Source of the DNA: Candidatus Tectomicrobia bacterium
Lineage (GTDB): Bacteria > UBA8248
Assembly (NCBI GenBank): GCA_016192135.1
Contig: JACPUR010000019.1
Location: 124,001 to 188,000 of the forward strand
Length of the DNA stretch: 64,000 nt
Reading direction: 5' to 3'
In this document: piece after piece, positions 6,608-40,360 of the stretch
Position numbering within the stretch: the stretch's first letter is position 1
Layout of the letters: every line of letters begins with the position of its first letter
Notes under the pieces: generated by a model
Databases searched by the model: none
Told to the model about the DNA's origin: nothing
What the model saw: only the letters and a program-made list of their open reading frames with translations
Position numbers and translations under genes: made by a program

Positions 6608-6635
6608 GTAGGGGCGTTCAATTGAACGCCCCTAC
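6608..6635. repeat. GTAGGGGC-capped palindrome, GTTCAATTGAAC core
   Basis: A perfect 28-bp palindrome with caps GTAGGGGC and GCCCCTAC. The same core recurs at 40385-40412. Confidence 0.85.
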
Positions 6636-9758: not shown

Positions 9759-9766
9759 GGGGGGCA

Positions 9767-10086: not shown

Positions 10087-10114
10087 CGATCTCAATCCCA
10101 CTGCACCGAGAGGG

Positions 10115-10619: not shown

Positions 10620-10810
10620 CTTAGGGCTGAGCCGGCCCCTCTTTGCCAGGAATAAGCCGTCACCCGGAGCGTTCCTAGGCCAGATGACATTTCCGGGGGC
10701 GATCGCGCCGTGGCATCCCCGGCAACTGAATAGGGGGCCGGCGACACACCGAGCCCCAGGGCGCAGGAAGGGCCGTGTGGGGCCGCATCTCCACACGGTC
10801 TTTTTTTGTC
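10620..10810 (+). ncRNA. Candidate structured leader RNA upstream of the SulP gene
   Basis: The gap 10445-10868 holds no convincing gene. From about 10660 there are several nested complements (GTCA / TGAC, CCGGGG / CCCCGG around 10693-10722), followed by a strong terminator at 10771-10807 that ends 60 bases before the SulP start. This layout fits a transcription-attenuating leader or a free small RNA. I do not recognise a known riboswitch class. Confidence 0.4.
10771..10807 (+). terminator. Strong intrinsic terminator in the SulP leader
   Basis: CCGTGTGG pairs with CCACACGG around a ten-base loop and is followed at once by a run of seven T. It lies before, not after, the SulP coding region, so it either ends a leader RNA or regulates SulP by attenuation. 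Confidence 0.85.
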
Positions 10811-10868
10811 CGTTGATGAGGGGGGACGGATTTAGATAGGGTCCGCAACCCGCCATCTAAAAAATTTC

Positions 10869-12749
10869 ATGTGCGCTCCGGAGACTTTTTTCGCCGCCGT
10901 TCGGACGTGGCCGAGCGTGTATACGCCAAAGCTTGTCACGGAATTGAAGGGGTACGACAGAGGGAAACTGGTTTCCGATTTGTTCGCGGGGATCACGGTG
11001 GGCGTGGTGGCCCTGCCGCTGGCCATGGCCTTCGCGATCGCCAGCGGCCTCCCGCCCGAGCGCGGCCTGTTCACGGCGATCGTGGCGGGGCTCATGATCT
11101 CCGCCCTGGGTGGGAGCAAGGTCCAGATCGGCGGGCCGACCGGGGCCTTCGTGGTCATCGTCTCCGGCATCGTGGGACAGTACGGCTACGCCGGGCTGGC
11201 GCTGTGCACCCTGATGGCCGGGGTGCTCCTCATCCTCTTCGGGCTGTTCCGGCTGGGGGGACTGATCCGGTTCATCCCGTTCCCGGTCACCACGGGCTTC
11301 ACGACCGGGATCGCCGTGGTCATCTTTTCCACCCAGATCAAGCCGCTGCTCGGCCTGCGCATGGAGGCCGTCCCGTCCGAGTTCCTTCCCCAGTGGCAGG
11401 CCTACCTGGCGCATCTGGACAGCCTGAACTTCTCGGCGGCCGCGCTCGGCGCAGGCACCATCGGGCTCATCCTGCTCGTCCGCAGGCTCTTCCCCCGGTG
11501 GCCCGCGCTGCTCATCGGCATGGCCGCCGCCGCCGCCGCCTCTTCATGGCTGGGGCTGGACGTGGAGACGATAGGCGCCAGGTTCGGCGACCTGCCCCGC
11601 GTCCTCCCCGCGCCCTCGCTGCCCGAGGTCCGCTGGGAGGACATCGGGGGGCTCCTCAAGCCCGCGATGACGGTCGCGCTCCTGGCCGCGGTCGAGTCCC
11701 TGCTCTCGGCCTCGGTGGCAGACGGGATGATCGGCGGCCACCACCGCCCGAACGCGGAGCTGATCGCCCAGGGTGCCGCCAACATCGGCAGCGTCATCTT
11801 CGGAGGGATTCCCGCCACGGGCGCCATCGCCCGCACGGCGACTAACGCGAGGAGCGGCGCCCGGACGCCGGTGGCGGGCATAATCCACGCCCTCGTCCTG
11901 ATGGCGCTCCTCCTCCTCTTCGCGCCCCTGGCCAAGCAAATCCCGCTCGCCGCGCTGGCCGGCATCCTCGTGGTGGTGAGCTACAACATGAGCGAGCTCC
12001 ACCACTTCCGCTCCATCCTGAAGGGGCCGAAGAGCGACGCCTTCGTGCTGGCGCTCACCTTCGTGCTCACCGTGGTGTTCGACCTCACCCTGGCGGTGGA
12101 GGTGGGCATCGCGCTCGCGGCCCTCCTGTTCATCCGGCAGATGTCGAAGATCACCAACGTCAGCATGGTCACCAGCCCGGCGGCGGGGGATGGCGACCGG
12201 CGGGAGGACCTGCGCGCCATCTCCCTGCGGGAAGTTCCCCACGGCGTGGAGGTGTTCGAGGTCAACGGCCCCTTCTTCTTCGGGATGATCGACACCTTCA
12301 AGAACGCCGTCCGGAACGTGAAGTGCCCCACGCCGGTGCTCATCATCCGCATCCGGAACGTCCAGGCGATGGACGCGACCGGCATCCACACGCTGCGGGA
12401 ACTGAGGCACCGGTGCGGCCGGGAGGGGACGGCCCTCGTCTTCTCGGGGGTGAATCCACAGCCCCTCGCCGCCTTCCAGCGTTCCGGGCTGATGCAGGAG
12501 GTCGGCCGGGAGAATTTCTGCGCCAACATCGACGAGGCCCTCGCCCGCGCCCGGGCGATCCTGGCCGGGCTGGAGCGGGAGGAAGCGGTGGAGAGCCCCT
12601 CCCCTTGGGCCCAAGCAAAATGGCCCTCCCCTTTCACGGGGAGGGCCGAACGTTTCCCTCGGGATTTTTCTCAGGGCTTCCCGGGCTCGGGCCCCTTGGC
12701 GACGGGGGCGCCGACGAGGTTGCCCCACTCGGTCCAGGAGCCGTCGTAG
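10869..12749 (+). CDS. SulP-family anion permease with C-terminal STAS domain
   Basis: This 626-residue protein starts at the ATG at 10869. The sulfate-transporter core has about 10-14 membrane segments, beginning with LVSDLFAGITVGVVALPLAMAFAIASGLPPERGLFT. It includes GGPTGAFVV and the conserved ESLLSASVADGMIGGHHRPNAELIAQGAAN segment. The STAS domain follows (residues about 440-560), with MDATGIHTL near residue 500 marking the nucleotide/phospho-site loop. Family members carry sulfate, bicarbonate, molybdate or other anions into the cell. The last 50 residues run through a hairpin (12622-12647) and overlap the convergent rhodanese gene, so the tail may be an extension past an ancestral stop. 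The convergent rhodanese suggests sulfur metabolism, but no true operon joins them. Confidence 0.93.
   Translation: MCAPETFFAAVRTWPSVYTPKLVTELKGYDRGKLVSDLFAGITVGVVALPLAMAFAIASGLPPERGLFTAIVAGLMISALGGSKVQIGGPTGAFVVIVSGIVGQYGYAGLALCTLMAGVLLILFGLFRLGGLIRFIPFPVTTGFTTGIAVVIFSTQIKPLLGLRMEAVPSEFLPQWQAYLAHLDSLNFSAAALGAGTIGLILLVRRLFPRWPALLIGMAAAAAASSWLGLDVETIGARFGDLPRVLPAPSLPEVRWEDIGGLLKPAMTVALLAAVESLLSASVADGMIGGHHRPNAELIAQGAANIGSVIFGGIPATGAIARTATNARSGARTPVAGIIHALVLMALLLLFAPLAKQIPLAALAGILVVVSYNMSELHHFRSILKGPKSDAFVLALTFVLTVVFDLTLAVEVGIALAALLFIRQMSKITNVSMVTSPAAGDGDRREDLRAISLREVPHGVEVFEVNGPFFFGMIDTFKNAVRNVKCPTPVLIIRIRNVQAMDATGIHTLRELRHRCGREGTALVFSGVNPQPLAAFQRSGLMQEVGRENFCANIDEALARARAILAGLEREEAVESPSPWAQAKWPSPFTGRAERFPRDFSQGFPGSGPLATGAPTRLPHSVQEPS
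12610..12647 (-). terminator. Terminator of the rhodanese gene
   Basis: GGCCCTCCCC pairs perfectly with GGGGAGGGCC. On the minus strand ATTTTGCTT follows, making a plausible intrinsic terminator. It lies inside the 3' end of the SulP frame. Confidence 0.7.
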
Positions 12750-13546
12750 TTGCGGACGTTGTCGTAGCCGAGGAGGAACTTGAGCACGAACCAGCTGTGG
12801 CTCGATCGCTCCCCGATGCGGCAGTAGGCGACGACGGGCTTGTCGGGGGTGACGCCCTTGCCCTTGTAGAGGGCCTCGAGCTCCTCGCGCGGCTTGAAGG
12901 AGCCATCCTCCTTCACGGCCTGGCCCCAGGGGATGTTGGCCGCCCCGGGAATGTGGCCGCCCCGCTGGCAGGTCTCGTTCAGCCCCGGAGGGGCGAGGAT
13001 CTTCCCGGTGTACTCGTCCGGGGAGCGTACGTCCACAAGGGCGAAGGACTTCCCGTTGGAGAGCAGCTCCTCCACGTCCCGGCGGTAGGCGCGGAAGCTC
13101 TTGTTCATCCGGGCGGGGTCCACCTTATAGCTCCCGGCGGGATGCTTGGGGGCCCCGGTGGTGAGGGGGCGGTTCTCCTTGAGCCACTTCACGCGCCCCC
13201 CGTCCATGAGGCGGGCGTCCCCGTGGCCGTAGTACTTGAGCTGCCAGACGAACCAGGCGGCGAACCAGTTGTTGTTGTCGCCGTAGGCCACGATGGTGGT
13301 GTTGTTCGAGATGCCGAGGTCGCTCAGCAGCTTCTCCCAGTCCTGGTTCGAGAGGAGATCGCGGCGCACCTGGTCGGTGAGCTGGCTGTCCCAGCTCACC
13401 CCTACGGCGCCCTCGATGTGGCCCTTCTCGTAGGACGAGGTGTCGACGTCCACCTCGACCAGGCGGACGTTGGGATCCTTGCCGTGCTGGGCGACCCAGT
13501 CGGTGGAGGCGAGGACCTCCGGATGGGCGTAGTTGGTGGTAGCCAT
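12671..13546 (-). CDS. Thiosulfate/3-mercaptopyruvate sulfurtransferase (tandem rhodanese)
   Basis: 291 residues in two rhodanese domains. The N-terminal domain (VRLVEVDVDTSSYEKGHIEGAVGVSW) is the inactive half, and the C-terminal domain (ALVDVRSPDEYTG) carries the active-site loop CRIGERSSH with Cys242. The loop resembles thiosulfate sulfurtransferases (CRxGxRS) more than the CGSGVTA loop of mercaptopyruvate enzymes. It transfers sulfane sulfur to cyanide or thiol acceptors. No signal peptide is seen, so it is probably cytoplasmic. An AT-rich promoter region lies upstream at 13600-13660. It is convergent with the SulP gene. Confidence 0.92.
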   Translation of the reverse strand: MATTNYAHPEVLASTDWVAQHGKDPNVRLVEVDVDTSSYEKGHIEGAVGVSWDSQLTDQVRRDLLSNQDWEKLLSDLGISNNTTIVAYGDNNNWFAAWFVWQLKYYGHGDARLMDGGRVKWLKENRPLTTGAPKHPAGSYKVDPARMNKSFRAYRRDVEELLSNGKSFALVDVRSPDEYTGKILAPPGLNETCQRGGHIPGAANIPWGQAVKEDGSFKPREELEALYKGKGVTPDKPVVAYCRIGERSSHSWFVLKFLLGYDNVRNYDGSWTEWGNLVGAPVAKGPEPGKP

Positions 13547-13620
13547 GGGCGGTGACCTCCTTGCTTGATGCGTGACATGCCGGCGGAAAGTACGGATTCG
13601 CGCGAACCATATACAAATAG

Positions 13621-13649
13621 ATATATGACCAAAACAGTCAGTTTTGCAA
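13621..13649 (-). promoter_or_regulatory. Candidate promoter of the rhodanese gene
   Basis: On the minus strand TTGCAA is followed after 17 bases by ATATAT, inside an AT-rich block about 80-100 bases upstream of the start. This is a reasonable sigma-70-like match in an otherwise GC-rich sequence. Confidence 0.35.
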
Positions 13650-13698
13650 GGGAAAATTTGGCCCTTCGGGGTATGGCCCGGAAGGGCTTGTATTTAGG

Positions 13699-14715
13699 CT
13701 ATTTCCGCGGGCTGCGGGCCAGGAGGGCGTAGACCCCGCCCATGAGGATGCCGGGCAGGACCCCCAGGGCGTGAGCCAGGGTGGCGTAGGCGAGGGCCTC
13801 GGCGGAGCCCACCGCGAGCATCCCGGTGAGGAACCGGCTCGCGAAGAAGTGAGTGGTGCCCGTCCCGCCCGGGGAGGGCAGGGCGTAGGCCACCGCCATG
13901 ACCAGCGTCACGCCCAGGGCGTCCCCCAGGCCGGGCGAGGCGGTCCGGGCGAAGCCGAAGGCCTGGAAGAGGAGCCAGAAGCCCACGGCGTAGAAGAACC
14001 AGATGGCCCCGGTCAGCAGGGCGATTCCCGTCGCGGCCTGCCGCTCGAAGATCCCCCCCAGCCCCTTCAGGAAGTGGCCGCTCGCGGCGCCGATCCGCTC
14101 CGCGAGGGAAGGCGCGAGCCGCCGGGAGAGCCCGCCCATCCGCCGGACCGACGCTTCGGGATTTCGGGCGAGCCACCAAGCGGCCCCGAGGGCCGCGGCG
14201 GAGAGGATCGCGGTGAGGAGCATCGCGTTCCCGATCCCCGGGAAGACCCGTTCGAGCCGTCCCCGGTAGATCAGCAGGAGGGGCGGGAAGAGCGCCGCCA
14301 GGGTCACGAGGTCGAGAAGCCGCTCCGTGATCACCGTGCTCAGCCCGGCCCCGAGGGGCACCCCCGCCACCCGCTGCAGGAAGACCGCGCGCGCCACCTC
14401 CCCGCCCCGGGGCAGGGCCACGTTCACCCCGTAGCCCACCATCAGGGCGGCGAAGGCGTCATGGGTCCGGAGATCGGGGCGGGAGCCCAGGAGGAAGAGC
14501 TTCCAGCGCCCGGCCCGCAGCACGTTCGAGAGGATCTGGCAGGCCACCGCCCCCGCCACCGGGAGGAGCTCCACCCCTCCCATCGTCCGCGCGAACTCCC
14601 CCCAAGGGGTCTTCCGGAAGGCCAGCCACAGGAAGAGCACGGTGAGGACGAGGCCGAGGGCGGTCTTCGGCCCGTAGCGCCTCGTCATCGAATGGCCAAG
14701 GGCGGATGAGGCCAA
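13699..14715 (-). CDS. Lysylphosphatidylglycerol-synthase-type transmembrane protein (UPF0104/LPG_synthase_TM)
   Basis: A 338-residue integral membrane protein with about eight helices and the family signatures SNVLRAGRWKLFL, GYGVNVALPRGGEVARAVFLQR, STVITERLLDLV and ALPSPGGTGTTHFF. The catalytic lysyl-transferase domain of MprF is absent, so this is the flippase-like domain alone. Such proteins are thought to move glycosylated or aminoacylated lipids. The first codon at 14715 is TTG with AAGGAAG seven bases before it; an in-frame ATG at 14688 is the alternative. It is likely expressed alone. Confidence 0.85.
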   Translation of the reverse strand: MASSALGHSMTRRYGPKTALGLVLTVLFLWLAFRKTPWGEFARTMGGVELLPVAGAVACQILSNVLRAGRWKLFLLGSRPDLRTHDAFAALMVGYGVNVALPRGGEVARAVFLQRVAGVPLGAGLSTVITERLLDLVTLAALFPPLLLIYRGRLERVFPGIGNAMLLTAILSAAALGAAWWLARNPEASVRRMGGLSRRLAPSLAERIGAASGHFLKGLGGIFERQAATGIALLTGAIWFFYAVGFWLLFQAFGFARTASPGLGDALGVTLVMAVAYALPSPGGTGTTHFFASRFLTGMLAVGSAEALAYATLAHALGVLPGILMGGVYALLARSPRK

Positions 14716-14740
14716 TGGAACGCTTCCTTGTGGCTGAATC

Positions 14741-14768
14741 GTAGGGGCGCACGGCCGTGCGTCCCTAC
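14741..14768. repeat. GTAGGGGC-capped palindrome, GCACGGCCGTGC core
   Basis: A 28-bp near-perfect palindrome (one mismatch, GTCCCTAC instead of GCCCCTAC). It separates the membrane protein from the SDR operon. Confidence 0.8.
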
Positions 14769-14787
14769 CGGGGAGAGCAAATTTTCC

Positions 14788-15492
14788 TCACCAGGGCATG
14801 GGCTGGTGGTCGCGGAAGAAGCCGCCCGTGGGGCCGCCCTCCGGGAGCAGGGCGAGCCAGACGGCGGTGTCGGCCCCCTCCTCGGGAGTGCGGGAGGCGC
14901 CCTCCCCGCCCATCTCCGTCCGCACCCAGCCCGGGTGGCACGCGTTCACGAGCACCCCGCTCCCCTTGAGCTCGTCCGCGAGCTGGCGGGTGATGGCGTT
15001 GAGGGCCACCTTGCTCAGGCGGTAGGCGGGGGAGCCGCCCCCCATCTGGGCGAGGGAGCCCATGCCGCTCGAGACGTTCACCACGCGCCCGGCGCGGCTC
15101 TTCCGGAGCAAGGGCGCCAGCCGCTGGCAGAGGAGCAGGGGCCCCAGCGCGTTCGTCTCCATCGCCGCCCGGAGCACCTCCACGGGCACGTCCAGCGCGC
15201 GGTGATCCCAGTCGTTGCGGATGGCGGCGTTGTTCACCAGGATGTCCAGCCTTCCATATTCCTTTTCGATGAAGGCCGCCAGCGCCTCGATGCTCTTTTC
15301 GTCGCTCGCGTCCAGGGGATGGAAGCGCACCGGGAGGTCCTCCTTCCGGAGCGCGGCCGCCGCGGCCTCTCCCTTCCCTGCGTCGCGGGCGGTGAGGAGG
15401 ACGCCCACGCCCCTCGCCGCGAGCCCCCGGCAGATGGCGAGGCCGATGCCCCGGTTCCCGCCCGTCACGGCGGCGACCCGCTCACCGGCCAC
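14788..15492 (-). CDS. Short-chain dehydrogenase/reductase (carbonyl reductase type), copy 1
   Basis: 234 residues with the classical SDR motifs: TGGNRGIG near the N-terminus binding NAD(P), LDILVNNAAI, VVNVSSGMGS with the catalytic Ser, and YRLSK with catalytic Tyr and Lys. The domain order and PGWVRTEMGG near the C-terminus match carbonyl-reductase-like SDRs. The substrate is unknown. It is the last gene of a three-gene operon with TfoX-like 15482-15895 and a close paralogue at 15889-16599. It overlaps the TfoX gene by 11 bp. Confidence 0.9.
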   Translation of the reverse strand: MAGERVAAVTGGNRGIGLAICRGLAARGVGVLLTARDAGKGEAAAAALRKEDLPVRFHPLDASDEKSIEALAAFIEKEYGRLDILVNNAAIRNDWDHRALDVPVEVLRAAMETNALGPLLLCQRLAPLLRKSRAGRVVNVSSGMGSLAQMGGGSPAYRLSKVALNAITRQLADELKGSGVLVNACHPGWVRTEMGGEGASRTPEEGADTAVWLALLPEGGPTGGFFRDHQPMPW

Positions 15493-15895
15493 GGGCGCGG
15501 CTTCCCTTCGCTTTGGGTCTGGTCTTGGGTTTTTCTTTGCCCTTGGCGGGGGTCTTGCGTGGCCGGGGCTTCTGCTCAGCCTCCCGGCAGGCGAGCGCCC
15601 GCTTGGCCCACTCGACGAGGGCGTCGGCGTCCTCGACGATCTCGACCGGCACCTCGTAGTAGGTCTTGATGATCTGCTTCGGGGTGGGCCGGAAGGGCCC
15701 CATGCCGCGCGAGAGGTACTCGGCGCGGCTCGCCTCGTCCGTCTTGAAGTAGAGCCGCTCCTTGTGCAAGGCGCCGAAGAAGACGCCGTCCTTGTAGACG
15801 CCCGCCCCCCCGAACATGCGGCGGACCTCCACCCGCCCGAGCCCGGCGAGCTGGTCCTCGACGAACTCCTGGAAGCTGTCCGGCTCCCTCACCAT
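15482..15895 (-). CDS. TfoX/Sxy N-terminal-domain protein
   Basis: 137 residues. Residues about 8-100 form a TfoX N-terminal domain (LAGLGRVEVRRMFGGAGVYKDGVFFGAL, RLYFKTDEASRAEY, YYEVPVEIVEDADALVEWAKRAL). The C-terminal 35 residues are a Lys/Arg/Pro-rich tail that probably binds nucleic acid or is disordered. In gammaproteobacteria TfoX regulates competence, but stand-alone N-terminal domains are widespread and mostly uncharacterised. It is sandwiched between two SDR paralogues and overlaps both. Confidence 0.85.
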   Translation of the reverse strand: MVREPDSFQEFVEDQLAGLGRVEVRRMFGGAGVYKDGVFFGALHKERLYFKTDEASRAEYLSRGMGPFRPTPKQIIKTYYEVPVEIVEDADALVEWAKRALACREAEQKPRPRKTPAKGKEKPKTRPKAKGSRARGR

Positions 15896-16599
15896 GCGTA
15901 GGCCCTGCGGTTCTGGAAGAAGCCTCCCGTGGGGCCCCCGTCCGGAAGGAGCGCGAGCCAGGCCGGGGTGTCCGCCCCCTCGTCCGGCGAGAGCGGGGCG
16001 CCCGCGCCGCCCATGTCGGTCCGCACCCAGCCCGGGCAGGCCGCGTTGACCAGGATGCCCGCGCCCTTTAGCTCATCCGCCAGGATGCGCGTCAGCGCGT
16101 TCAGGCAGGCCTTGGAGACGCGGTAGCCCGCATAGCCCCCGCCCTGCATCTCGGCCATGCTCCCGAACCAGCTCGACACGTTCACGACGCGCCCGCCCCC
16201 GCTTTTCCGCATGAGGGGGGCGAGGGCCTGGGCCAGGCGGAGCGGGCCGTAGAGGTTCGTCTCCAGCGTCTCGCGGAGGGAGGGGAGATCGATGGTCAGC
16301 GCGCGCTTCGAGCGGTCGATCAGGATGGCCGCGTTGTTCACCAGGATGTCCAGCCGGCCGAACTCGCGCTCGATGAAGGCGGCGAGCGCCCGGGCCGAGT
16401 CGATGTCCCTCACGTCCAGCGGGTGAAAACGAACGGAAAGCCCCTCCTTCTCCAAGCGGGCGCAGGCGGCCCCGCCTTTTTTCCCGTCGCGCGCGGCCAG
16501 GACGACCGCGCAGCCCTCCCGCGCCAGCCGGCGGCAGAGGGCCAGGCCCACTCCCTTGTTCCCGCCCGTCACGGCGGCGACCTTGGGCTTCGGCGGCAC
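15889..16599 (-). CDS. Short-chain dehydrogenase/reductase, copy 2 (paralogue)
   Basis: The GTG at 16599 has AAGGAG six bases before it; the ATG at 16647 lacks such a site. The 236 residues carry TGGNKGVG, LDILVNNAAI, VVNVSSWFGS and YRVSK. Long stretches match copy 1 (SVRFHPLD, AAFIEREFGRLDILVNNAA, LADELKGAGILVNAACPGWVRTDMGG, LALLPDGGPTGGFF), so the two arose by duplication. It is the first gene of the operon and overlaps the TfoX-like gene by 7 bp. Confidence 0.9.
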   Translation of the reverse strand: MPPKPKVAAVTGGNKGVGLALCRRLAREGCAVVLAARDGKKGGAACARLEKEGLSVRFHPLDVRDIDSARALAAFIEREFGRLDILVNNAAILIDRSKRALTIDLPSLRETLETNLYGPLRLAQALAPLMRKSGGGRVVNVSSWFGSMAEMQGGGYAGYRVSKACLNALTRILADELKGAGILVNAACPGWVRTDMGGAGAPLSPDEGADTPAWLALLPDGGPTGGFFQNRRAYAW

Positions 16600-16691
16600 G
16601 GGGGTCTCCTTCCGGATGAGCCGGGATGCCGCGCCATGATATACCAACCCCCTGGCCGCCGCCGAAGGGGCGCGCGGACGGGAGATTGCCG

Positions 16692-17393
16692 ATGCCCCGC
16701 CGGGTTCACCTCATGCTCTTCGACGTGGACGGCACCCTGCTCCTGAGCGGGGGGGCGGGGGCGCTCGCCCTGAACGACGCCTTCCTCGCCCTCCACGGGG
16801 TGCCGAACGCGATGTCGCGCGTGCACCCGCACGGGAAGACGGACCCCGCCATCTGCCAGGAGATGTTCCAGACCCACTTCGGGCGCGAGGGCGCCGAAGA
16901 AGAGCTGGCCCGACTGATGGAGGCCTACCTCGAGATGCTCCCGGCGCGGGTGGCCGGCTCGCGGAATTACCACATCATGCCCGGCTTCCCTCAAGTGCTG
17001 GACGCCCTCGCGGCGCGGGAGGACGTGCTCCTGGGCCTCGGGACGGGGAACTTCGAGCGGGGGGCGCGCATCAAGCTCGAGCGCGGCGGGCTGAACCCCT
17101 ACTTCCGCTTCGGGGGGTTCGGCTGCGACTCCTCCGACCGGGGCCGTCTGCTCGAGGCGGGCTTCCGGCGCGGGGAGGAGCGCGCCCGGCCGGGGACGGA
17201 GGTGGTCCGCTGGGTGGTGGGGGACACCTGGCGCGACGTGCGGGCGGGCCGGGCCTGCGGGGCGCGCGTCATCGCGGTGGCCACCGGGGGGGACACCCTG
17301 CACGGGCTGGCGGAGGCCGCGCCGGACCACCTCTTCGCCGACTTCCGGCGCGGGGAGGACCTCCTCTCCGTGCTGGACGGCCCCCCCGCATGA
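16692..17393 (+). CDS. HAD-superfamily phosphatase (phosphoglycolate phosphatase-like)
   Basis: The ATG at 16692 follows a GGGAGA. The 233 residues include motif I LMLFDVDGTLL with the nucleophilic Asp, a helical cap domain (residues about 20-85), motif II LGLGTGNFERGA and motif IV VVGDTWRDVRAGRACGARVIAVATG. This is a subfamily I HAD with an alpha cap, like Gph and beta-phosphoglucomutase relatives. The phosphorylated substrate is unknown. It overlaps the next gene by four bases (ATGA), so the two are translationally coupled. Confidence 0.9.
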   Translation: MPRRVHLMLFDVDGTLLLSGGAGALALNDAFLALHGVPNAMSRVHPHGKTDPAICQEMFQTHFGREGAEEELARLMEAYLEMLPARVAGSRNYHIMPGFPQVLDALAAREDVLLGLGTGNFERGARIKLERGGLNPYFRFGGFGCDSSDRGRLLEAGFRRGEERARPGTEVVRWVVGDTWRDVRAGRACGARVIAVATGGDTLHGLAEAAPDHLFADFRRGEDLLSVLDGPPA

Positions 17394-17896
17394 GCGGGCC
17401 CGGCCGGCGGCAGCTCCTCTTCTGGCTGGGGTTCCTCGCCATCGTGGCCGTCCCGGCGGGGGCGCTCTTCCTGGCGAAGCCGCTCTTCCTGGAACGCTCG
17501 GGGGCGGAGGCGGAGCTCCTCCGGCGGGCCGAGGCCCTCCGGGGGCAGCCCCCGGAGCGGGCGGCGGCCGGGGTGGGGCGGATGGCCAAGGAGTATCTCG
17601 ACACCTCCCGCCACGTGAGCCGGGCCGAGGTGGAGGTCCGGGAGGCCTCGGCGCGGCGCCTGGCCTTCACGGTCTTCCTGCCCTGGAGCGAGGTCAGCGC
17701 GAGCCACCGCCGCCGCCGGGCCGAGGCCCTGGGCCGCCTCGCCTCGGGGATGCTCCGGCGGGCGGGGGCGGAGGGGGTGGCGGTCGAGGTGGAGGTGCGG
17801 CGCTGGCGCAAGGACTCCGCCGGGCGGAGCGGCCCGGCCGGCCGCTCCCTCCACGATCCCCGGACGGGCCGGAGCGAGTGGCGCGAGGCGCCCTGA
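17390..17896 (+). CDS. Single-pass membrane protein of unknown function
   Basis: The 168-residue protein has one N-terminal membrane helix (QLLFWLGFLAIVAVPAGALFLAKPLFL). A periplasmic domain rich in Arg, Ala and Glu follows, with a beta-rich core (AEVEVREASARRLAFTVFLPWSEVSAS). I do not recognise the family. Coupling to the HAD phosphatase by an ATGA overlap suggests a shared role. Confidence 0.75.
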   Translation: MSGPGRRQLLFWLGFLAIVAVPAGALFLAKPLFLERSGAEAELLRRAEALRGQPPERAAAGVGRMAKEYLDTSRHVSRAEVEVREASARRLAFTVFLPWSEVSASHRRRRAEALGRLASGMLRRAGAEGVAVEVEVRRWRKDSAGRSGPAGRSLHDPRTGRSEWREAP

Positions 17897-17900
17897 GGGC

Positions 17901-17935
17901 GAAAAAGAACGGCGGCCGCCGGAGCGGCCGCCGTT
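17901..17935 (-). terminator. Bidirectional hairpin, minus-strand terminator of the cold-shock gene
   Basis: AACGGCGGCCGC pairs with GCGGCCGCCGTT around CGGA. On the minus strand it is followed by TTCTTTTT. It also separates the convergent plus-strand gene. Confidence 0.75.
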
Positions 17936-17958
17936 GGGTGTATGGCCGTGTGGAGGGG

Positions 17959-18183
17959 CTAGACGGGCACGCCCTTTCTCACGTTGGCCGCCTGCAGCCC
18001 TTTGGGGCCCTGGACAATCTCGAATGTGACCCGCTCACCCTCCTGAAGCGTCTTGAAGCCCTCTCCCTGGATGGCGGAGAAGTGGACGAACACGTCGTCC
18101 CCTCCGGACTGAGAGATGAATCCATAGCCCTTGGCGTCGTTGAACCACTTGACGGTTCCTTCTGGCACCTTCCTATCTCCCAC
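17959..18183 (-). CDS. Cold-shock domain protein, copy 1
   Basis: 74 residues forming one OB-fold cold-shock domain. The RNP1 motif KGYGFIS and RNP2 motif VFVHFSAI are intact, followed by [29 protein letters not shown]. It binds single-stranded RNA/DNA and melts mRNA structure. About 250 bases without a gene separate it from the second cold-shock gene; long untranslated leaders are usual for this family. It is one of three near-identical paralogues in the window. Confidence 0.95.
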
Positions 18184-18434
18184 GTGATGCAGATGCGGCG
18201 CGCGACGCGGTACACCCCGCGGACGCGGCTTGCCGCGACCGAAACAACGGCATTGTGGAGGCCGACCTTTTTCGGGGGATTTGGTTCAGGCGTGAGGGAG
18301 AGGGCATTTTTCCGTCGTTCCCCGCTCGCAAACCCAACCGCTTTCCTCAACAGCATCAACCGATGAAAGATCGGGCGTAAAAAAAGGCTACTATAAGGTT
18401 ACCCCCGGCGCAACTGAAAATTCCGGCCCTCCGG

Positions 18435-18641
18435 CTACCCCGCCAGCCGGCGGACGTTGCCCGCCTGGAGCCCCTTTGGCCCCTGCACGACCTCGAAGCT
18501 GACCTTCTCGCCCTCCTTGAGGCTCTTGAACCCCTCGCCCTGGATGGCCGAGAAGTGGACGAAGATGTCCTGCCCCCCCTCCTGCGAGATGAACCCGTAC
18601 CCCTTCGAATCGTTGAACCACTTCACCGTTCCTTCGGGCAT
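18435..18641 (-). CDS. Cold-shock domain protein, copy 2
   Basis: The ATG at 18641 gives 68 residues: [19 protein letters not shown], then [42 protein letters not shown]1 and RNP2 are intact. The 43 residues upstream in the open frame do not look like protein and are probably the mRNA leader. It is tandem with copy 1 on the same strand but about 250 bp apart, so separate promoters are likely. Confidence 0.95.
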
Positions 18642-18830
18642 CGAAACGCTCCTAGTGAAAATGGAGAGATAGACCGGATGGGCCATCCCGGCCGGGGACC
18701 CCTCTCCATCCCAATGATACCGCAATGTTACTGGGCGGGCGGGCCTTATGCAAATACGAGTTTTTGACATTTTGGAGGATTGGGTATCGTATTGCCGGTC
18801 GCCGCGTGAGTCTTTTTTGGGAGCCGGCCG

Positions 18831-19502
18831 GTGCCCCAGGCCCGAAAATCATCCGCCCTGGCGCTCTTTCCCGAATATGGGCGCCTGCCGGGCATGTTCG
18901 CCCGGGAGGTGGAAGGATTGCCCGATGAAATTCTCGATCGCGTCCGCCCGGAGAAGAGCTGGGGCGCCTGGAGCATCCGGGTGCAGGTGAGCCACACGGC
19001 CTACATCCCCTACCTTTTTTTCCTGGACCTCCTCGTCCCCGCCCTCTGGCCGGACGGGAAACTCACCCGTGACAAATCCCTCGCGGACACCGGGGGCGCC
19101 GACCGCCGGCTCGACCCCGCCCGCTTCCACGCCATGCCCGGCCTCATCGCCGCCCTCGCGGACGGCTGCGCCCTCGCGCGGGAGGTCCTCGCCCGCGAGA
19201 CCCCCGCCTCCCTCCGGCGCGAGATCCCGCGCCGCGTCCCCCGGGAGCGCCGCTGGGCCAACGGCGAGCGCGTGGCGGACTACTGGGAGAACCTCGTCCT
19301 CCCCGCCAATCCGGACGGCATCCGGCGCGACCCCTCGGACCCCGAGCTCTTCCACCAGACCCTCGGCTGCGCCTTCCGCCACATCCTCTGGGAGGCCTTC
19401 GTCCACCTCAGGACCATCCAGGCCCACAAGCGCGCCGAGGGCCTGCCGCCCCGTGCCGAGGTGCCCGAAGTGGGGTATATTCCCCGGCTCGCCTGGGACT
19501 GA
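18831..19502 (+). CDS. DinB-like/putative thiol-transferase fold protein
   Basis: The GTG at 18831 has GGGAG seven bases upstream. The 223 residues are mainly helical. The phrase [21 protein letters not shown] and the later [20 protein letters not shown] fit the four-helix metal-binding bundle of DinB/YfiT proteins, with His residues in helices 1 and 3. The assignment rests on weak similarity. It is 45 bp upstream of the pyrophosphatase gene and may be co-transcribed. Confidence 0.55.
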
Positions 19503-19547
19503 GCGCCCCGGCGCCGCCGCCCCCTTCACCGGAGCCACGCGAGCCCC

Positions 19548-20093
19548 ATGCCCTTCCACGCCTCCTACATGGACATCTCCCCCGGCACCGGAATCCCCCG
19601 CGTTGCCAACGCCATCATCGAGATCCCCAAGGGCCGCCGGAACAAGTTCGAGGTGGACAAGGAGACGGGGCTCTTCCGCCTCGACCGTTACCTCTACTCC
19701 TCGAGCCACTACCCGGGCGACTACGGCTTCATCCCCCAGACCCTGGCCGAGGACGGCGACCCCCTCGACGTCCTCGTCATGGTGAACGAGCCCACCTTCA
19801 CCGGCTGCCTCATCGAGGCGCGCATCGTGGGCCTCTTCCGCATGCGGGACCGCGGCCAGAACGACTGGAAGGTGCTCGGCGTCCCCCACACCGACCCCCT
19901 CTTCAGCGAGATCAACGGCCTCGGCGGCGTGCCCCCGCACTTCCTCCGCGAGGTGGAGCACTTCTTCCTCACCTACAAGCAGCTCGAGGGCGTCACGGTC
20001 GAGGCCATCGGCTGGGCGGACGCCTCGGAGGCCGTGGCCGAGGTGCGCGCCTCCGTCGACCGCTGGCGCGACCACCACATCGCCCGGCCCTGA
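19548..20093 (+). CDS. ppa: Inorganic pyrophosphatase (family I)
   Basis: 181 residues, the usual length of bacterial family I enzymes. The metal-binding motif EDGDPLDVLV (68-77) supplies the catalytic aspartates 69, 71 and 74. YPGDYGFIP (55-63) and the Lys/Arg of the substrate site near residue 30 (EIPKGRRNKFEVD) are present. It hydrolyses pyrophosphate from biosynthetic reactions in the cytoplasm. The start ATG at 19548 is followed by a normal N-terminus. Confidence 0.95.
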   Translation: MPFHASYMDISPGTGIPRVANAIIEIPKGRRNKFEVDKETGLFRLDRYLYSSSHYPGDYGFIPQTLAEDGDPLDVLVMVNEPTFTGCLIEARIVGLFRMRDRGQNDWKVLGVPHTDPLFSEINGLGGVPPHFLREVEHFFLTYKQLEGVTVEAIGWADASEAVAEVRASVDRWRDHHIARP

Positions 20094-20124
20094 AAAAAAG
20101 GCGCGCGGCCCCCCGCCGCGCGCC
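20093..20124 (-). terminator. Minus-strand terminator of the 66-residue Cys protein
   Basis: GGCGCGCGGC pairs with GCCGCGCGCC around CCCCC. On the minus strand a run of seven T follows. It also lies directly after the ppa stop codon. Confidence 0.8.
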
Positions 20125-20181
20125 CGGAAGAGCGCATCTCCCGTCCCCGGCTTGCGGTCCGTGCCGGGGCGCCCGGTTCCG

Positions 20182-20382
20182 CTACGCCGCCCGCTCGAAC
20201 CCGCTGCAGCCGCTCACCGGCGTGACCATCAGGCGGAGCGGGCTGAGCTGCGGGTGGCCGCACGTCTCCACGAGCGCCTCGGGCGCCTCCTTCTTCTTCC
20301 GGATTTCCTTCACCTCGCTGTTGATGTGGCCCTCGGCGAAGTGCATGCACAGCCCGCACTGGCCCTCTTTCACCTTCATCAT
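20182..20382 (-). CDS. Small cysteine-containing protein, putative metal-binding
   Basis: 66 residues, beginning MMKVKEGQCGLCMHFAEGHINSEVKEIRKKKEAPE. It has a CxxC (residues 9 and 12) followed by two histidines and further Cys at about 41 and 59 (ETCGHPQ, VSGCSGFE). The pattern suggests one zinc or iron site. I do not know the family. It has its own terminator on the minus strand at 20093-20124, which supports it as a real transcript. Confidence 0.65.
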   Translation of the reverse strand: MMKVKEGQCGLCMHFAEGHINSEVKEIRKKKEAPEALVETCGHPQLSPLRLMVTPVSGCSGFERAA

Positions 20383-20590
20383 GGCGCGGCATCCCTCTCG
20401 TTCGCTTCAAGCGGCGGTCTTCGATTCCCAATGTGCGCGCCGCCGGGCGGCCGGGCCACCGTTTCGAGGCGGCTCCGGTCATTTCCCCGGGCGGTCTCCG
20501 GGTTTTCCCCGCCGGGGCGGGCGCCCCTGGCGGGGGGAGGGGGCGTGTGGCAGGATGCAATCGTTCGCCCGGGACGAGATGACCCCGTAT

Positions 20591-20619
20591 GTAGGGGCGG
20601 GTTTCAAACCCGCCCCTAC
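20591..20619. repeat. GTAGGGGC-capped palindrome, GGGTTTCAAACCC core
   Basis: A 29-bp palindrome that ends 10 bases before the methylase start. The same core occurs at 23584-23612. Confidence 0.85.
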
Positions 20620-20628
20620 GGACCCGAG

Positions 20629-21456
20629 ATGCCCACCCGCGCCCCGCAGGCAGAACGCCCCGCCCTCAGGCCCCCCCTCAAGTGGGCCGGGGGCAAGCGC
20701 TGGCTCGTCCCCTACCTTCGGCACATCTGGGAGGGGTATGTAGGGGCGCATGGCCATGCGCCCCGCCTCGTCGAGCCCCTGTGCGGGGGCCTGGCCGTGG
20801 CGCTGGAGATCAGGCCCCGGCGCGCGCTCTTGAACGACATCAACCCCCACGTCGGCAACTTCTACCGCTGGCTCAAGCGGGGCCTCGTCATCCCCGAAGA
20901 CCTGGAGATGGCGAACGATTCGGGCCTCTACTACGCCCACCGCGCACGCTTCAACGAGCTGCTCAAGGAAGGGAAGGAGACGGGCGCCGAGGCCGCCGCG
21001 CTCTTCTACTACCTCAACCGCACCGGCTACAACGGACTCTGCCGCTTCAACAACTCGGGCGGATTCAACGTGCCCTTCGGCCGCTACGCCAAGATCAACT
21101 ACGCCCGCGACTTCACCCCCTACCGCGCCGCCCTGCGCGGCTGGCGCTTCACGAGCGGGGACTTCGAGCGCATCCCCCTGGAGCGCGGCGACTTCGTCTA
21201 CGCCGACCCCCCCTACGACGTGGAGTTCACCAAGTACGCCAAGGAGGGCTTCGGCTGGGACGACCAGGTGCGCCTCGCCGGGTGGCTGGCCCGGCACAAG
21301 GGGCCGGTGGTGGCGTCCAACCAGGCCACGGAGAGGATCGTCAGGCTCTACCGCAAGCTCGGCTTCAGGCTCGCCTTCCTGGAGGCGCCAAGGATGATCA
21401 GCTGCAAGGCGGATGGGCGGAAGCGGGTGATGGAGGTGGTGGGGGTGAGGGGGTAG
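20629..21456 (+). CDS. DNA adenine methylase (Dam/D12 class)
   Basis: 275 residues from the ATG at 20629. N6-adenine methylase motifs are PPLKWAGGKRWLVPYL (about 15-30), the AdoMet loop RLVEPLCGGLAVAL (46-59), RALLNDINPHVGNFYR and the catalytic DPPY at 193-196. This is the D12 class, which includes Dam and solitary GATC-type methylases. No restriction endonuclease is next to it. A capped palindromic repeat (20740-20764) lies in frame between the first motif and the AdoMet loop and encodes YVGAHGHAPR, which looks like an insertion in a surface loop. The longer open frame upstream of 20629 runs through another repeat and is not used. Confidence 0.92.
   Translation: MPTRAPQAERPALRPPLKWAGGKRWLVPYLRHIWEGYVGAHGHAPRLVEPLCGGLAVALEIRPRRALLNDINPHVGNFYRWLKRGLVIPEDLEMANDSGLYYAHRARFNELLKEGKETGAEAAALFYYLNRTGYNGLCRFNNSGGFNVPFGRYAKINYARDFTPYRAALRGWRFTSGDFERIPLERGDFVYADPPYDVEFTKYAKEGFGWDDQVRLAGWLARHKGPVVASNQATERIVRLYRKLGFRLAFLEAPRMISCKADGRKRVMEVVGVRG
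20740..20764. repeat. GTAGGGGC-capped palindrome inside the methylase gene
   Basis: GTAGGGGCGCATGG and CCATGCGCCCC form a half-capped palindrome (the closing TAC is missing). It is translated in frame at methylase residues 38-46. Confidence 0.8.
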
Positions 21457-21512
21457 CTATGAAAATGTAGGTTATTTATGGTAGAATAAATTTAATTTTA
21501 GGAGGTATTGTT

Positions 21513-22532
21513 ATGAACGATGACAAAATTTCAAATGTTTTGCCTCCGCCAATTAGCGAGCCAGCCGATCCGAATGGTAACCCTGGCAAAGAAAGTGAGC
21601 CCGGAGGGAAGGCCGATCCTCAACCATCCCCGGGAAAAGGTACGCAAATTCCCTGGCATGAGTTTGTGCAGAACGCCTCCGATTATGAAATACAGAATCG
21701 CTTTTCTGCAGAAGTGAATCAAATTTTCGTGAGATATGCAGCTAAATTGGCCGATGCCTGCGTTGTGGCTCTAATGGATTTGGAAAGAAGTATCGACGAT
21801 TATGAATTGGATAGAATATACAACGCCCTCAAGACGCAAAACCCTTCAAAGCAAAAAAACGTGATTCTCTTCTTGTTGAGTCGAGGCGGAAAAATCGAGT
21901 CCGCTTATCAAATCAGCAAACTATGCAAGACGTTCTCGAAACAGAAATTCATTGTCTGTGTGCCAAGGCAGGCCAAGTCTGCGGGGACACTGATCGCAAT
22001 TGGAGCCGATGAGATACACATGGGTCTACTAGGACAGCTAGGGCCCATTGATCCTCAATTGGGCCATCCTCCAATTCCTGCATTGGGAGTGACTCAGGCA
22101 CTCGAAGCAATTGCCAAGCTGTCTAATCAATATCCGGGATGCTCAGAGATGTTTGCGGAGTACCTCCGCAACACGCTTACAATTGCTCAAATTGGCTACT
22201 GCGAGCGCGTGAGCGAATCCGCGGCCCAGTATGCGGAGCGGCTTCTCTTAACAAAGCCAAATCTCAAGGATGCTGCCAGTAAGATTTCAAATGAGCTTGT
22301 ATATGAATATAAGGATCATGGATTTGTTATTGACATCGAAGAAGCAAAACGCCATTTGGGTGACGATTGGATTGTGGGCGATTCTGCTTTGATCGAGTTG
22401 GCTGAGGAAGTTTATAGTTTGTTTGATCTCGTTAATTTGTTCTTAGAAGTACGTGCGAATAAATATTTAATTGTGGGCGGAAGCTTTAATTCCGATGTTT
22501 ATGTATTCGACAAGCCTCAGAGAGCGAACTGA
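21513..22532 (+). CDS. SDH-family (Clp/SppA-fold) serine protease-like protein, likely acquired
   Basis: The 339-residue protein has a disordered Pro-rich N-terminus (1-45) and then a ClpP/crotonase-fold core: QKNVILFLLSRGGKIESAYQISKL, VPRQAKSAGTLIAIGADEIHMG and LGQLGPIDPQL. Ser156 in KSAGT is the predicted nucleophile, and the pattern matches the SDH_sah/serine dehydrogenase proteinase family. No membrane anchor is seen. Its codons are much more AT-rich than the neighbours and it has its own AGGAGG ribosome-binding site, which indicates recent transfer. It sits beside a solitary methylase and between palindromic repeats, as a small accessory cassette. Confidence 0.85.
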   Translation: MNDDKISNVLPPPISEPADPNGNPGKESEPGGKADPQPSPGKGTQIPWHEFVQNASDYEIQNRFSAEVNQIFVRYAAKLADACVVALMDLERSIDDYELDRIYNALKTQNPSKQKNVILFLLSRGGKIESAYQISKLCKTFSKQKFIVCVPRQAKSAGTLIAIGADEIHMGLLGQLGPIDPQLGHPPIPALGVTQALEAIAKLSNQYPGCSEMFAEYLRNTLTIAQIGYCERVSESAAQYAERLLLTKPNLKDAASKISNELVYEYKDHGFVIDIEEAKRHLGDDWIVGDSALIELAEEVYSLFDLVNLFLEVRANKYLIVGGSFNSDVYVFDKPQRAN

Positions 22533-22535
22533 AGG

Positions 22536-22554
22536 CCGCTTCGCTCGGAATGAC
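22536..22554. repeat. Half copy of the GTCATTCTGAGCG element
   Basis: CCGCTTCGCTCGGAATGAC matches the right arm of the 80-bp element and lies just after the SDH stop codon. It may mark the edge of the inserted cassette. Confidence 0.6.
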
Positions 22555-22632
22555 ACTGCCGAAACCGCTTCTAACCCCATCGCATATTCCCTCCATGGAA
22601 TCGCTTAAGATAACCTCATTGAGGGATGTTTC

Positions 22633-22935
22633 GTGCCCGGCAACGGCCAAGCGGTCCTGAAAGCCCTCGAACCCCGCCGGGCGGAGCTGCGCCGCCTGGG
22701 GGTGAAGCGGCTCGCTCTCTTCGGCTCATCCGTCCGGGGAGACGCAGAAGAGAAGAGCGACCTGGATTTCCTGGTCGAGCTCGACCCCAAGTCCTTCGAT
22801 GCCTACATGGACGTGAAGTTCTTCCTGGAGGACCTCTTCGGCCGGAAGGTGGACCTCGTCCTGGCCGACGCGCTCAAGCCGCGCCTGCGCCCGCGCATCC
22901 TGGCCGAGGCCGTGGATGTGCCCCTGTCATCCTGA
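22633..22935 (+). CDS. Minimal nucleotidyltransferase (MNT type), orphan
   Basis: The GTG at 22633 opens a 100-residue nucleotidyltransferase domain. The motif FGSSVRGDA (30-38) and the metal-binding SDLDFLVE (42-49; Asp43 and Asp45) are intact, and a third acidic residue lies in KVDLVLADA. MNT proteins pair with HEPN partners as toxin-antitoxin modules, in which the MNT modifies the HEPN toxin. Here no HEPN gene follows: an 80-bp repeat begins at 22926 and supplies the stop codon. The partner may have been lost on insertion of that repeat. Confidence 0.85.
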   Translation: MPGNGQAVLKALEPRRAELRRLGVKRLALFGSSVRGDAEEKSDLDFLVELDPKSFDAYMDVKFFLEDLFGRKVDLVLADALKPRLRPRILAEAVDVPLSS

Positions 22936-23004
22936 GCGCAGCGAAGGATCTGCTTCTGTCTTTGAAGCAGATTCTTCACTTCGCTTCGCTCCGTTCAGAA
23001 TGAC
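22926..23004. repeat. 80-bp GTCATTCTGAGCG inverted-repeat element, second full copy
   Basis: GTCATCCTGAGCGCAGCGAAG on the left and CTTCGCTCCGTTCAGAATGAC on the right. The first bases overlap the end of the nucleotidyltransferase gene. Confidence 0.8.
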
Positions 23005-23025
23005 GGCTCCCGACAGCCACGCTCC

Positions 23026-23053
23026 GTAGGGGCGACCGGCCGGTCGCCCCTGC
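23026..23053. repeat. GTAGGGGC-capped palindrome, GACCGGCCGGTC core
   Basis: A 28-bp palindrome with the core shared with 40333-40360. It directly follows the 80-bp element. Confidence 0.85.
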
Positions 23054-23157
23054 ATCTTTCCCGGCGCCGCCGTCCTCCCCCTTTCGCCCTTTCCCCTCCG
23101 GTATTTCCCCCAGGCTTTTTGGAGTTTTTGAAGGCTTTTCGTTTCGCGGCGCTGGAG

Positions 23158-23163
23158 TATAAT
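23158..23163 (+). promoter_or_regulatory. Candidate -10 box (TATAAT) for the lipoprotein gene
   Basis: A consensus TATAAT lies 54 bases before the GTG at 23217 in a GC-rich region. No clear -35 box is seen at 17 bases. Confidence 0.35.
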
Positions 23164-23216
23164 CGGAAGCGTTGCGTACGCCGCCGTGATCCCCCATCCC
23201 TGTGGAGGGCTGCGCC

Positions 23217-23537
23217 GTGAAGGTCGCCACGCTCGTTTCATCCCTCGTCATTCTCGCATTCCTGTCCGGCTGCGCCGCCACCCAGCAGATCGTGTGGTCC
23301 AAGCCCGGGGTCACGGCGGCGCAGGGGGAGAAGGACCTCGAGGACTGCGCCAACAAGGCGAACATGGTCTACCCCTCCTCCGAGAACATGATCAACCCCA
23401 ATACCCCGGCCGACGGGAAGCTGGAGACGGGCTACATCATCGACTCCGACGTGCTGAAGGACAATTTTTCGAAGTGCATGGGGGCGAAGGGCTACAAGTT
23501 CGCGGGGTCGCAGCCCATCGCCGCCGCCGGGCGGTGA
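23217..23537 (+). CDS. Small lipoprotein
   Basis: The 106-residue protein has a signal sequence and lipobox (KVATLVSSLVILAFLSGCAA) with the acylated Cys at 19. The mature part contains two further cysteines (LEDCANKA and SKCMGAKGYKF), a spacing often seen in small outer-membrane lipoproteins, where a disulfide staples the domain. I recognise the general shape (a glycine-zipper-free small lipoprotein ending CMxxKGY) but not a function. The GTG start follows a GGAGG at 12 bases; an upstream ATG-like codon at 23202 is less likely. Confidence 0.75.
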   Translation: MKVATLVSSLVILAFLSGCAATQQIVWSKPGVTAAQGEKDLEDCANKANMVYPSSENMINPNTPADGKLETGYIIDSDVLKDNFSKCMGAKGYKFAGSQPIAAAGR

Positions 23538-23583
23538 GGAATCTCGGCGTCCGGATTTTTCCCCCGCAGACGGCGATGGGTGG

Positions 23584-23612
23584 GTAGGGGCGGGTTTGAA
23601 ACCCGCCCCTGC
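23584..23612. repeat. GTAGGGGC-capped palindrome, GGGTTTGAAACCC core
   Basis: A 29-bp palindrome with the same core as 20591-20619 in the opposite orientation. Confidence 0.85.
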
Positions 23613-23632
23613 GGATGTGCTTGTCCGTCTCC

Positions 23633-23696
23633 GTAGGGGCAGGCCCCTGTGCCTGCCCCGGCCCCCAGAGGGGCGGCCACGGGGGGCCGCCCCTAC
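23633..23696. repeat. Compound GTAGGGGC-capped double hairpin
   Basis: GGGGCAGGC / GCCTGCCCC and GGGGCGGCC / GGCCGCCCC hairpins lie between GTAG and CTAC. This is the inverted order of 6657-6714. Confidence 0.8.
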
Positions 23697-23724
23697 GAGA
23701 TTCTCTGCGGTGCCCCCAAAAAGA

Positions 23725-23755
23725 AGCGGCGGCCATTCCGGCCGCCGCTCTTTTT
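23725..23755. terminator. Bidirectional intrinsic terminator
   Basis: AGCGGCGGCC pairs with GGCCGCCGCT around ATTCC. CTTTTTG follows on the plus strand and TCTTTTTG on the minus strand. It serves the lipoprotein and the third cold-shock gene. Confidence 0.85.
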
Positions 23756-23793
23756 GAACCGCGTTTGTGTCCGGCCTGCCCGGTGAAGCGGTT

Positions 23794-24003
23794 CTAGTGC
23801 CCTCCCGCCTTTTTCACGTTCGCGGCCTGGGGACCCTTCTTCCCCTGGACGACCTCGAAGGTGACGCGGTCTCCTTCCTGGAGCGACTTAAATCCGTCCC
23901 CCTGGATGGCGGAGAAATGGACGAAGACGTCTTCCCCGTCCTCCCGCGTGATGAACCCATACCCCTTGGCGTCGTTGAACCACTTTACCGTTCCGTCCGT
24001 CAC
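23794..24003 (-). CDS. Cold-shock domain protein, copy 3
   Basis: The GTG at 24003 has AGGAGAA seven bases upstream and opens a 69-residue cold-shock domain. RNP1 KGYGFIT and RNP2 VFVHFSAI are present, followed by [29 protein letters not shown]. It is closest to copy 1 by sequence. An intrinsic terminator follows at 23725-23755. Confidence 0.95.
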
Positions 24004-24198
24004 TGCAGCTTCTCCTGAAACCTGGGCGTTGCCTGGCCCCCTGATGGGCGATGAGGCGCGGCCCGTTTGCCTTTCCCGCGAGCCTGTTGCTGCGGGGAAT
24101 GGAAAAACGCTAGCACAAGGGGGGGCGCCGCACAAGAGTCGGAAATTCGGCAGGATAGGGGGAAAAGACCTGATTTCGGACCTTCGGCGCCGCCTGTT

Positions 24199-24984
24199 TC
24201 AGAAGCGGGGCTTCTCGAAGCGCTCCAGCATGGGGAACACCCGCTCGGCGTTCTCGCGCAGGCCGAAGAAGACCGGGCCGTCCGCCTTCTCGCCCCGGGC
24301 CAGCCCCTCGAGGCCGAGGGGCCGCCCGTCCGGGTGGTAGGCCCAGCCGCCCGTCTCGGCGAGGACGGCCATGGGCCCCAGGATGTCCCACAGGCGGGGG
24401 CGGTCCACCACCGAGCAGAAGGCGGCGCCCGCCGCCGCGTAGGCCACGTGGGCCGCCGCGCAGCCGTAGGCCACCGTCTTGCCCGGGAAGTCGAGCTTGT
24501 AGAAGCGCTTGCGCGAGGCGGGCCCGAAGAAGAGGGTCTGGTTGTCCACCTCGCGGGGGCCGAGGGGCGCGAGGGGCCGCCCGTTTCGTGTGGCGCCCCG
24601 GCCCCGCTCGGCGAGGAACATCTCCCCCGCCGCCGGCATGAAGAAGCCCCCGGCCAGGGGCGCGCCCTCCCGCATCACCCCCACCGCGACCCCCCAGGTG
24701 GGCAGCCCGTGGAGGTAGGGGTTGGTGCCGTCGATGGGGTCCACGGCCCAGAGGCGGCCCGCGGGGGAGAGGGCGGCCCCGGGGGCGAGCCCGCCCGACT
24801 CCTCGGCCAGGACCGGGTCGCCCGGGAAGCGCCGGGCGAGGCGCGCGAGGATGAGGCGCTCCACCTCGCGGTCGGCCTCGCTCACGAGGCTGCGGTCCTC
24901 CTTGCGCTCCGCGCTGGCGCCCGCCGCCAGCGAGAGGGCCAGGGCGCCCGCCTCGCGCAGGGTCTCCTCGATGAAGGCCAGCAC
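24199..24984 (-). CDS. Inositol-monophosphatase-family phosphatase
   Basis: The GTG at 24984 follows GGGAGGGG. The 261 residues carry the Li-sensitive phosphatase motifs: VSEADREVE (34-42), VLAEESGG with Glu61, and WAVDPIDGTNPY (79-90) with the metal-binding Asp pair. The C-terminal LWDILGPMAVLAETGG supplies the last Asp. The family cleaves inositol-1-phosphate, histidinol phosphate, PAP or sugar phosphates in a magnesium-dependent way. The closest match by motif may be histidinol-phosphatase-like enzymes; the substrate is not certain. It is probably monocistronic. Confidence 0.9.
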   Translation of the reverse strand: MLAFIEETLREAGALALSLAAGASAERKEDRSLVSEADREVERLILARLARRFPGDPVLAEESGGLAPGAALSPAGRLWAVDPIDGTNPYLHGLPTWGVAVGVMREGAPLAGGFFMPAAGEMFLAERGRGATRNGRPLAPLGPREVDNQTLFFGPASRKRFYKLDFPGKTVAYGCAAAHVAYAAAGAAFCSVVDRPRLWDILGPMAVLAETGGWAYHPDGRPLGLEGLARGEKADGPVFFGLRENAERVFPMLERFEKPRF

Positions 24985-25212
24985 CGCGCCCCTCCCCGGA
25001 TTCTATGTCACGGACCGTGGGCCTGAGAGATTCCAGACCCTACCCGATGCGCCCGGCCCGCGCCAGCCCCCTCTCCTTGCCTGGCCGGAGCCCCGGCGCG
25101 ATACTCCCCCGCTGTGCGGGGCCCGCCGCCGGGAGCCCGCGGAGGAAAGGATGCCGGCGTCCCCCGTCCCACAGCCCGCCGCCGGGCGCGCCCCATCCGC
25201 GCGCCCCGGGAT

Positions 25213-40332: not shown

Positions 40333-40360
40333 GTAGGGGCGACCGGCCGGTCGCCCCTAC
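40333..40360. repeat. GTAGGGGC-capped palindrome, GACCGGCCGGTC core
   Basis: A perfect 28-bp palindrome sharing its core with 23026-23053. Confidence 0.85.

Follow-up and report, generated by a model that had tools for sequence, protein, structure and literature searches.

A GTAG-tagged REP palindrome of the RAYT-dispersed kind has, with a probability that we put at about 0.86, entered a dam gene in the past and is now translated there as VGAHGHAP. The gene lies in a stretch of 64,000 nucleotides, called the window below, which belongs to a genome of 3.92 Mb in 41 contigs (G000); two further genomes, G001 and G002, are of the same genus. A small mobile DNA palindrome should thus have been made part of a conserved enzyme, and its likely agents are encoded in the same genome and carry matching repeats within their own genes.

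The palindrome within the dam reading frame

The initial annotation had placed a palindrome in frame within a DNA adenine methylase and had read it as part of the peptide YVGAHGHAPR. We have found the 25-mer there (Table 1), where it codes for V38–P45, and the peptide is identical to residues 37–46 of the 275-aa dam product. The perfect part of the palindrome is 22 nt long with arms of 11 bp. The element has GTAG at the foot of a palindrome in the 20–40 bp range, and the CGTC tag of Rickettsia palindromic elements is absent from it. The family unit is often a 28-mer running from GTAG to CTAC, as the CTAC end is present in 56 of the 83 oriented family matches sampled. In the dam copy the TAC on the right is missing, and CGCCCC is followed by GCC, that is, this copy is not double-footed. 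In the flanks of 56 two-ended oriented matches, T occupies position −3 in 42 cases and C or T occupies position −1 in 54.

Table 1 Features of the dam locus and REP copies in the window (positions are those of the window).
Feature	Position	Strand	Remark
REP palindrome GTAGGGGCGCATGGCCATGCGCCCC, in frame within dam	20740..20764	+	perfect palindrome at 20743-20764
TAT (Tyr37) before the dam REP	20737..20739	+	agrees with the T-N-Y sequence that often precedes family copies
dam, D12-class DNA adenine-N6 methyltransferase, 275 aa, intact	20629..21456	+	ATG start at 20629, stop ends at 21456; PF02086, TIGR00571, DPPY motif
Perfect double-foot REP of another subtype	20591..20619	.	9 nt before the dam start codon; predicted RNA hairpin −27.9 kcal/mol
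REP copy with the GCACGGCCGTGC core (subtype closest to that in dam)	14741..14768	+	one arm decayed
Perfect double-foot REP	6608..6635	.	orthologous G002 copy has a different, equally perfect core
REP copy, GACCGGCCGGTC core	23026..23050	+	
REP copy, GGGTTTGAAACCC core	23584..23609	+	
Perfect double-foot REP, GACCGGCCGGTC core	40333..40360	.	

The dam product belongs to the D12/Dam family by both profile and motif. Its residues 19–246 match MethyltransfD12 (PF02086) in Pfam with an E value of 3.8e-37, the NCBIfam dam family TIGR00571 gives 177.6 bits against a cut-off of 114.85, and the DPPY motif is found within YADPPYDVEF. The nearest solved folds are E. coli Dam and DpnM. In an alignment of 38 sequences (the window's dam and 37 of 80 homologues), all the invariant columns are kept. 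The AlphaFold model has a mean pLDDT of 88.1, with 93–94 across residues 31–50, and it places the REP-coded residues at the end of helix 24–41 and in the turn preceding strand 47–49. The methylase activity was probably retained.

In addition, the REP hairpin at 20591–20619 could affect the translation of dam. The gene after dam (21513–22532) is similar to SDH-type/ClpP-like proteases (PF01972, E 1.6e-12) and sits in a stretch of lower G+C.

Loop length in Dam homologues

A short loop had been expected at this place in related Dam proteins, and the D12/Dam alignment agrees with this expectation. The spacing from KWAGGKRW to CGGL is 33 residues in 75 of the 80 homologues from the genome collection and 34, 36, 36, 37 and 37 in the other five, i.e., never above 37, while it is 38 in the window (for L092, L101, L131 and L133 the spacing was read from alignments). 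All seven orthologues from genus g5 of the same family, with 61.7–65.1% identity by tblastn, have the short loop without the palindrome. None of the 80 homologue loci carries a family palindrome at the loop site, and the one palindrome-like string (L081) is located elsewhere. Homologues with the same residues and no repeat, which the initial annotation had named as the case against its proposal, were looked for among these homologues and not found. In homologue L054, for example, WQGYKHRRLVEPL stands at the position of the window's WEGYVGAHGHAPRLVEPL.

By this comparison, about 8 REP-coded residues took the place of about 3; with Tyr37 counted in the element, the exchange is 9 for 4. Since this leaves a net gain of just 5 residues, or 15 nt against an element of 25–28 nt, host codons should have been replaced too, and the event was not a plain insertion. 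The proposal that the repeat moved into the gene and is tolerated there as a peptide is supported by the extra residues and the preserved invariant columns, with the qualification that the insertion is not a clean one. A few bases of the palindrome could be ancestral, as the homologues commonly have A/G-H-R-H-R-R-L at the site, which partly resembles A-H-G-H-A-P-R-L.

The sister genomes offer no empty site for comparison, because neither G001 (only 67% complete) nor G002 has a dam match. When positions 5000–24999 of the window were compared with these two genomes at the DNA level, none of the matches listed lay over the dam gene.

The dispersed family and its RAYT genes

The claimed membership in a dispersed palindrome family is well borne out by the counts. 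In the window, the left end GTAGGGGCG has 15 occurrences, where 0.84 would be expected. Genome-wide, the pattern GTAGGGGCN{3,20}GCCCC gives 516 strand-hits (260+256) against 65 (32+33) for the reversed control, where perfect palindrome copies score on both strands, and a pattern with tighter spacing gives 439 against 27. The copies share constant ends and have variable cores. The exact dam 25-mer has a single occurrence in G000, so there is no identical donor copy. With up to two mismatches, it gives 16+21 strand-hits in G000, 11+11 in G002 and 2+1 in G001, and zero in the remaining 11 of the 14 genomes searched. The nearest common subtype has the core GCACGGCCGTGC, which differs from the dam core by one change per arm, i.e., two symmetric changes.

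At an orthologous intergenic site, window 6608–6635 and L211 (G002:C51), the cores are GTTCAATTGAAC and GTTCCATGGAAC, respectively. The site in G002 is not empty but occupied by the orthologous REP copy. Because both palindromes are perfect while their cores differ, both arms should have changed together.

Among 61 genomes, the highest palindrome counts are those of G000, G002, G057 and G001, and several other genomes of the same family, together with a few distant ones, show a smaller yet clear excess over the control. G057, which belongs to another family in the domain, has 165 palindrome strand-hits and 19 PF01797 matches. Several 25-mers are identical between G057 and G000, that is, the same REP cores exist in a distant lineage.

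In G000 we have also located the copies relative to genes, over ~380 kb drawn from contig C19 (up to 220 kb) and contig C13 (from 1 to 160 kb), ~80% of which is called coding. Of 29 copies, 23 lie between genes, 2 extend across an ORF edge and 4 lie inside an ORF call. These four are the dam copy, the REP at 20591 (5′ of the dam start), and two that adjoin the first possible ORF starts; being at most ~60 nt from such a start, the latter two probably sit upstream of the true one. Within this sample the dam copy is exceptional, since it lies inside a conserved domain. A second sample consisted of 74 distinct copies drawn from several hundred in G000, G001 and G002, in which 17 reading frames with an in-frame copy passed a base-composition filter that would drop RAYT genes. 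Two of the 17 come from the dam frame of the window. From the remainder, nine ORFs were run on Pfam, and a domain was found in four, with the copy preceding the domain in every case.

For the transposase, PF01797 (Y1_Tnp) has no match in G000, G001 or G002; in G000 and G002, whose RAYT genes it misses, this is likely because a REP insert splits the domain. A weak match does occur in G017 of the same family, in a 173-aa ORF (L243, G017:C248) that has the palindrome on both sides and also carries it in frame after MPNHFHGILII. With this protein as the tblastn query, six matches were obtained in G000, six in G002 and none in G001. An orphan, transposase-free mobile repeat had been considered as well, and was rejected on account of these six loci in each of G000 and G002. 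For three ORFs (G000:C1, G002:C127 and the one from G017), the best NCBIfam family is REP_Tyr_transpos, with E values from 1.3e-17 to 7.6e-22; their NF047646 scores are 69.2, 77.8 and 64.0 bits, where the curated cut-off is 80.

The RAYT genes themselves have the HuH motif MPNH[VLF]HG followed by an in-frame REP, read as VGAHGRAPLQ, VGARHASPLQ, RRGGSRTAPT and similar peptides. On G000:C1 (L254:1477-2040) there is an intact ORF of 187 aa, which has YVGADFKSAPT, a decayed REP copy, in the loop and takes its stop codon from the GTAG of a REP. The gene on G000:C15 (L265), which is frameshifted near the N-terminus, contains VGAHGRAPLQ and has the same REP upstream; these are GCACGGCCGTGC REPs, i.e., the subtype closest to that in dam is found both inside and beside this gene. 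The in-frame REP of G000:C35 (L283) is read as RRGESRIRPLE. In G002, the gene on C127 (L255) contains VGARHASPLQ, with the same REP found at its end, and that on C139 (L285) has one and the same core inside and beside it. The agreement between inner and outer subtypes is not universal, since the in-frame REP of G002:C76 has a core different from the one outside. REP copies were also found inside or beside further RAYT stretches on G000:C6, G000:C30, G002:C139 and G002:C200. Overall, these repeats flank the RAYT genes of G000:C1, G000:C15, G002:C127, G002:C139 and G017:C248. Since their own genes contain such palindromes in frame, the RAYTs are a plausible agent of REP movement into genes.

The RAYT ORFs of genus g5 (L246, L258, L259 and L266) have two facing REP-like peptides in the loop, VGADLCVRP or VGADPCVRP together with GGHTGPPLQ or GGHMGPPLQ, an arrangement that would fit the translation of two paired REPs.

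Origin of the insert and comparison with known systems

Under the proposed explanation, a REP of the VGAHGxAP subtype would have been inserted or copied into dam, possibly by single-strand cleavage and joining of the RAYT type, and the right foot of the REP and some host codons would have been lost at the junction. RAYTs are described as HuH enzymes that act on single strands and recognise both the GTAG foot and the hairpin (PMC8266576), and their movement of REPs is called poorly understood in a 2021 TnpA-REP paper. The REP unit is open in two of the three frames on each strand, and because of this and of its landing in the VGA frame, the copy is translated as VGAHGHAP. The gene may have survived because of frame and place, the landing site being a stretch that tolerates changes in length, after the N-terminal helix and before the first beta strand, in a turn that also varies in length in the homologues. 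The unique dam core could have been made by arm-to-arm correction. We have also considered a wider idea, which seems to us rather unlikely: double-foot REPs would be shaped to be harmless when translated, seeding Gly/Ala/Pro-rich linkers (VGAxxxAPL, RGAxxxAP) into loops such as Dam's, with the RAYT-internal copy as the template that fixes each subtype. The dam REP offers a defined target for testing the movement of REPs by RAYTs and the neutrality of the inserted loop.

It may be argued that the palindrome arose by codon chance or was formed in place, through a small insertion and template switching between the arms, from assumed ancestral codons such as GCG CAT CGC CAT CGC CGC CTC and without the arrival of a REP. 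The resemblance to the common homologue residues, the net gain of only 15 nt and the single genomic occurrence of the exact 25-mer all agree with this, as does the orthologous pair at 6608, which implies that some process keeps the arms matched. However, the dispersed family has the same left end, GTAGGGGCG, and the same right end, CGCCCC, and cores that differ from this one by one or two changes are present elsewhere. Moreover, when the codon order of dam was shuffled 300 times, the longest perfect arm had a mean of 5.75 bp and never exceeded 9 bp, against 11 bp in the real gene. We thus regard formation in place as improbable, and the arrival of a REP as the better account.

A different objection is that the dam gene is a decaying pseudogene, in which the insert is tolerated as the enzyme is dead. 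The missing dam matches in G001 and G002 would make the gene dispensable in the genus, with the incompleteness of G001 kept in mind, but the frame is open over 275 codons, no invariant column has been lost and the structure model is confident, so that decay is very improbable. We consider least probable of all that the palindrome is kept for a function, e.g., as a hairpin that slows the translation or transcription of dam or as a mark of the gene for RAYT cleavage. Stable RNA hairpins are indeed predicted, at −23.3 kcal/mol (z −3.0) for the copy in dam and somewhat lower for the one before its start, yet any REP yields a stable hairpin, and the absence of the palindrome from all of the homologues gives no comparative sign of maintenance.

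Palindromes inside protein-coding genes are not without precedent, as Rickettsia palindromic elements (RPEs) have reportedly been described there by Ogata and colleagues. The likeness to our case is that a palindrome is translated in frame inside ordinary genes with the ORF kept. No transposase is known for CGTC repeats. The occurrence of RPEs in protein-coding genes is also cited in PMC6649704. According to the main text of PMC3733652, some RPEs are CGTC-tagged, while the present element has a GTAG tag and is linked to RAYTs.

The GTAG REPs described by Di Nocera, De Gregorio and Rocco in 2013 are closer. In the main text of PMC3733652 they have a GTAG foot, a palindrome of 20–40 bp and hundreds of mostly intergenic copies, and their GTAG sometimes provides a TAG stop codon, all as in the present family; the differences are that the stem here begins with GGGGC and that the core is varied. 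In-frame REPs within genes are reported there too, many of these genes having a role in DNA repair, and the main text makes no mention of a methylase. Among the literature matches listed for a REP inside a Dam gene, none is on the subject by its title or the start of its abstract, and those listed for GTAGGGGCG as a string look unrelated by title. The REP in dam is a new instance of an already described type of event, and we do not claim that it is unreported.

The RAYT side of the system resembles TnpA-REP subclass 2.4, or RAYT group 4, as described by Quentin et al. in 2018 (PMC6006769), a likeness by description. The dam copy differs from that subclass in being single-footed. On the other hand, the shared features are a GT[AG]G foot paired with an opposite C[TC]AC end, REPs that flank the transposase gene, and a REP in frame after the HuH motif, in-frame REPs within the transposase gene being given in that account as a feature of the subclass.
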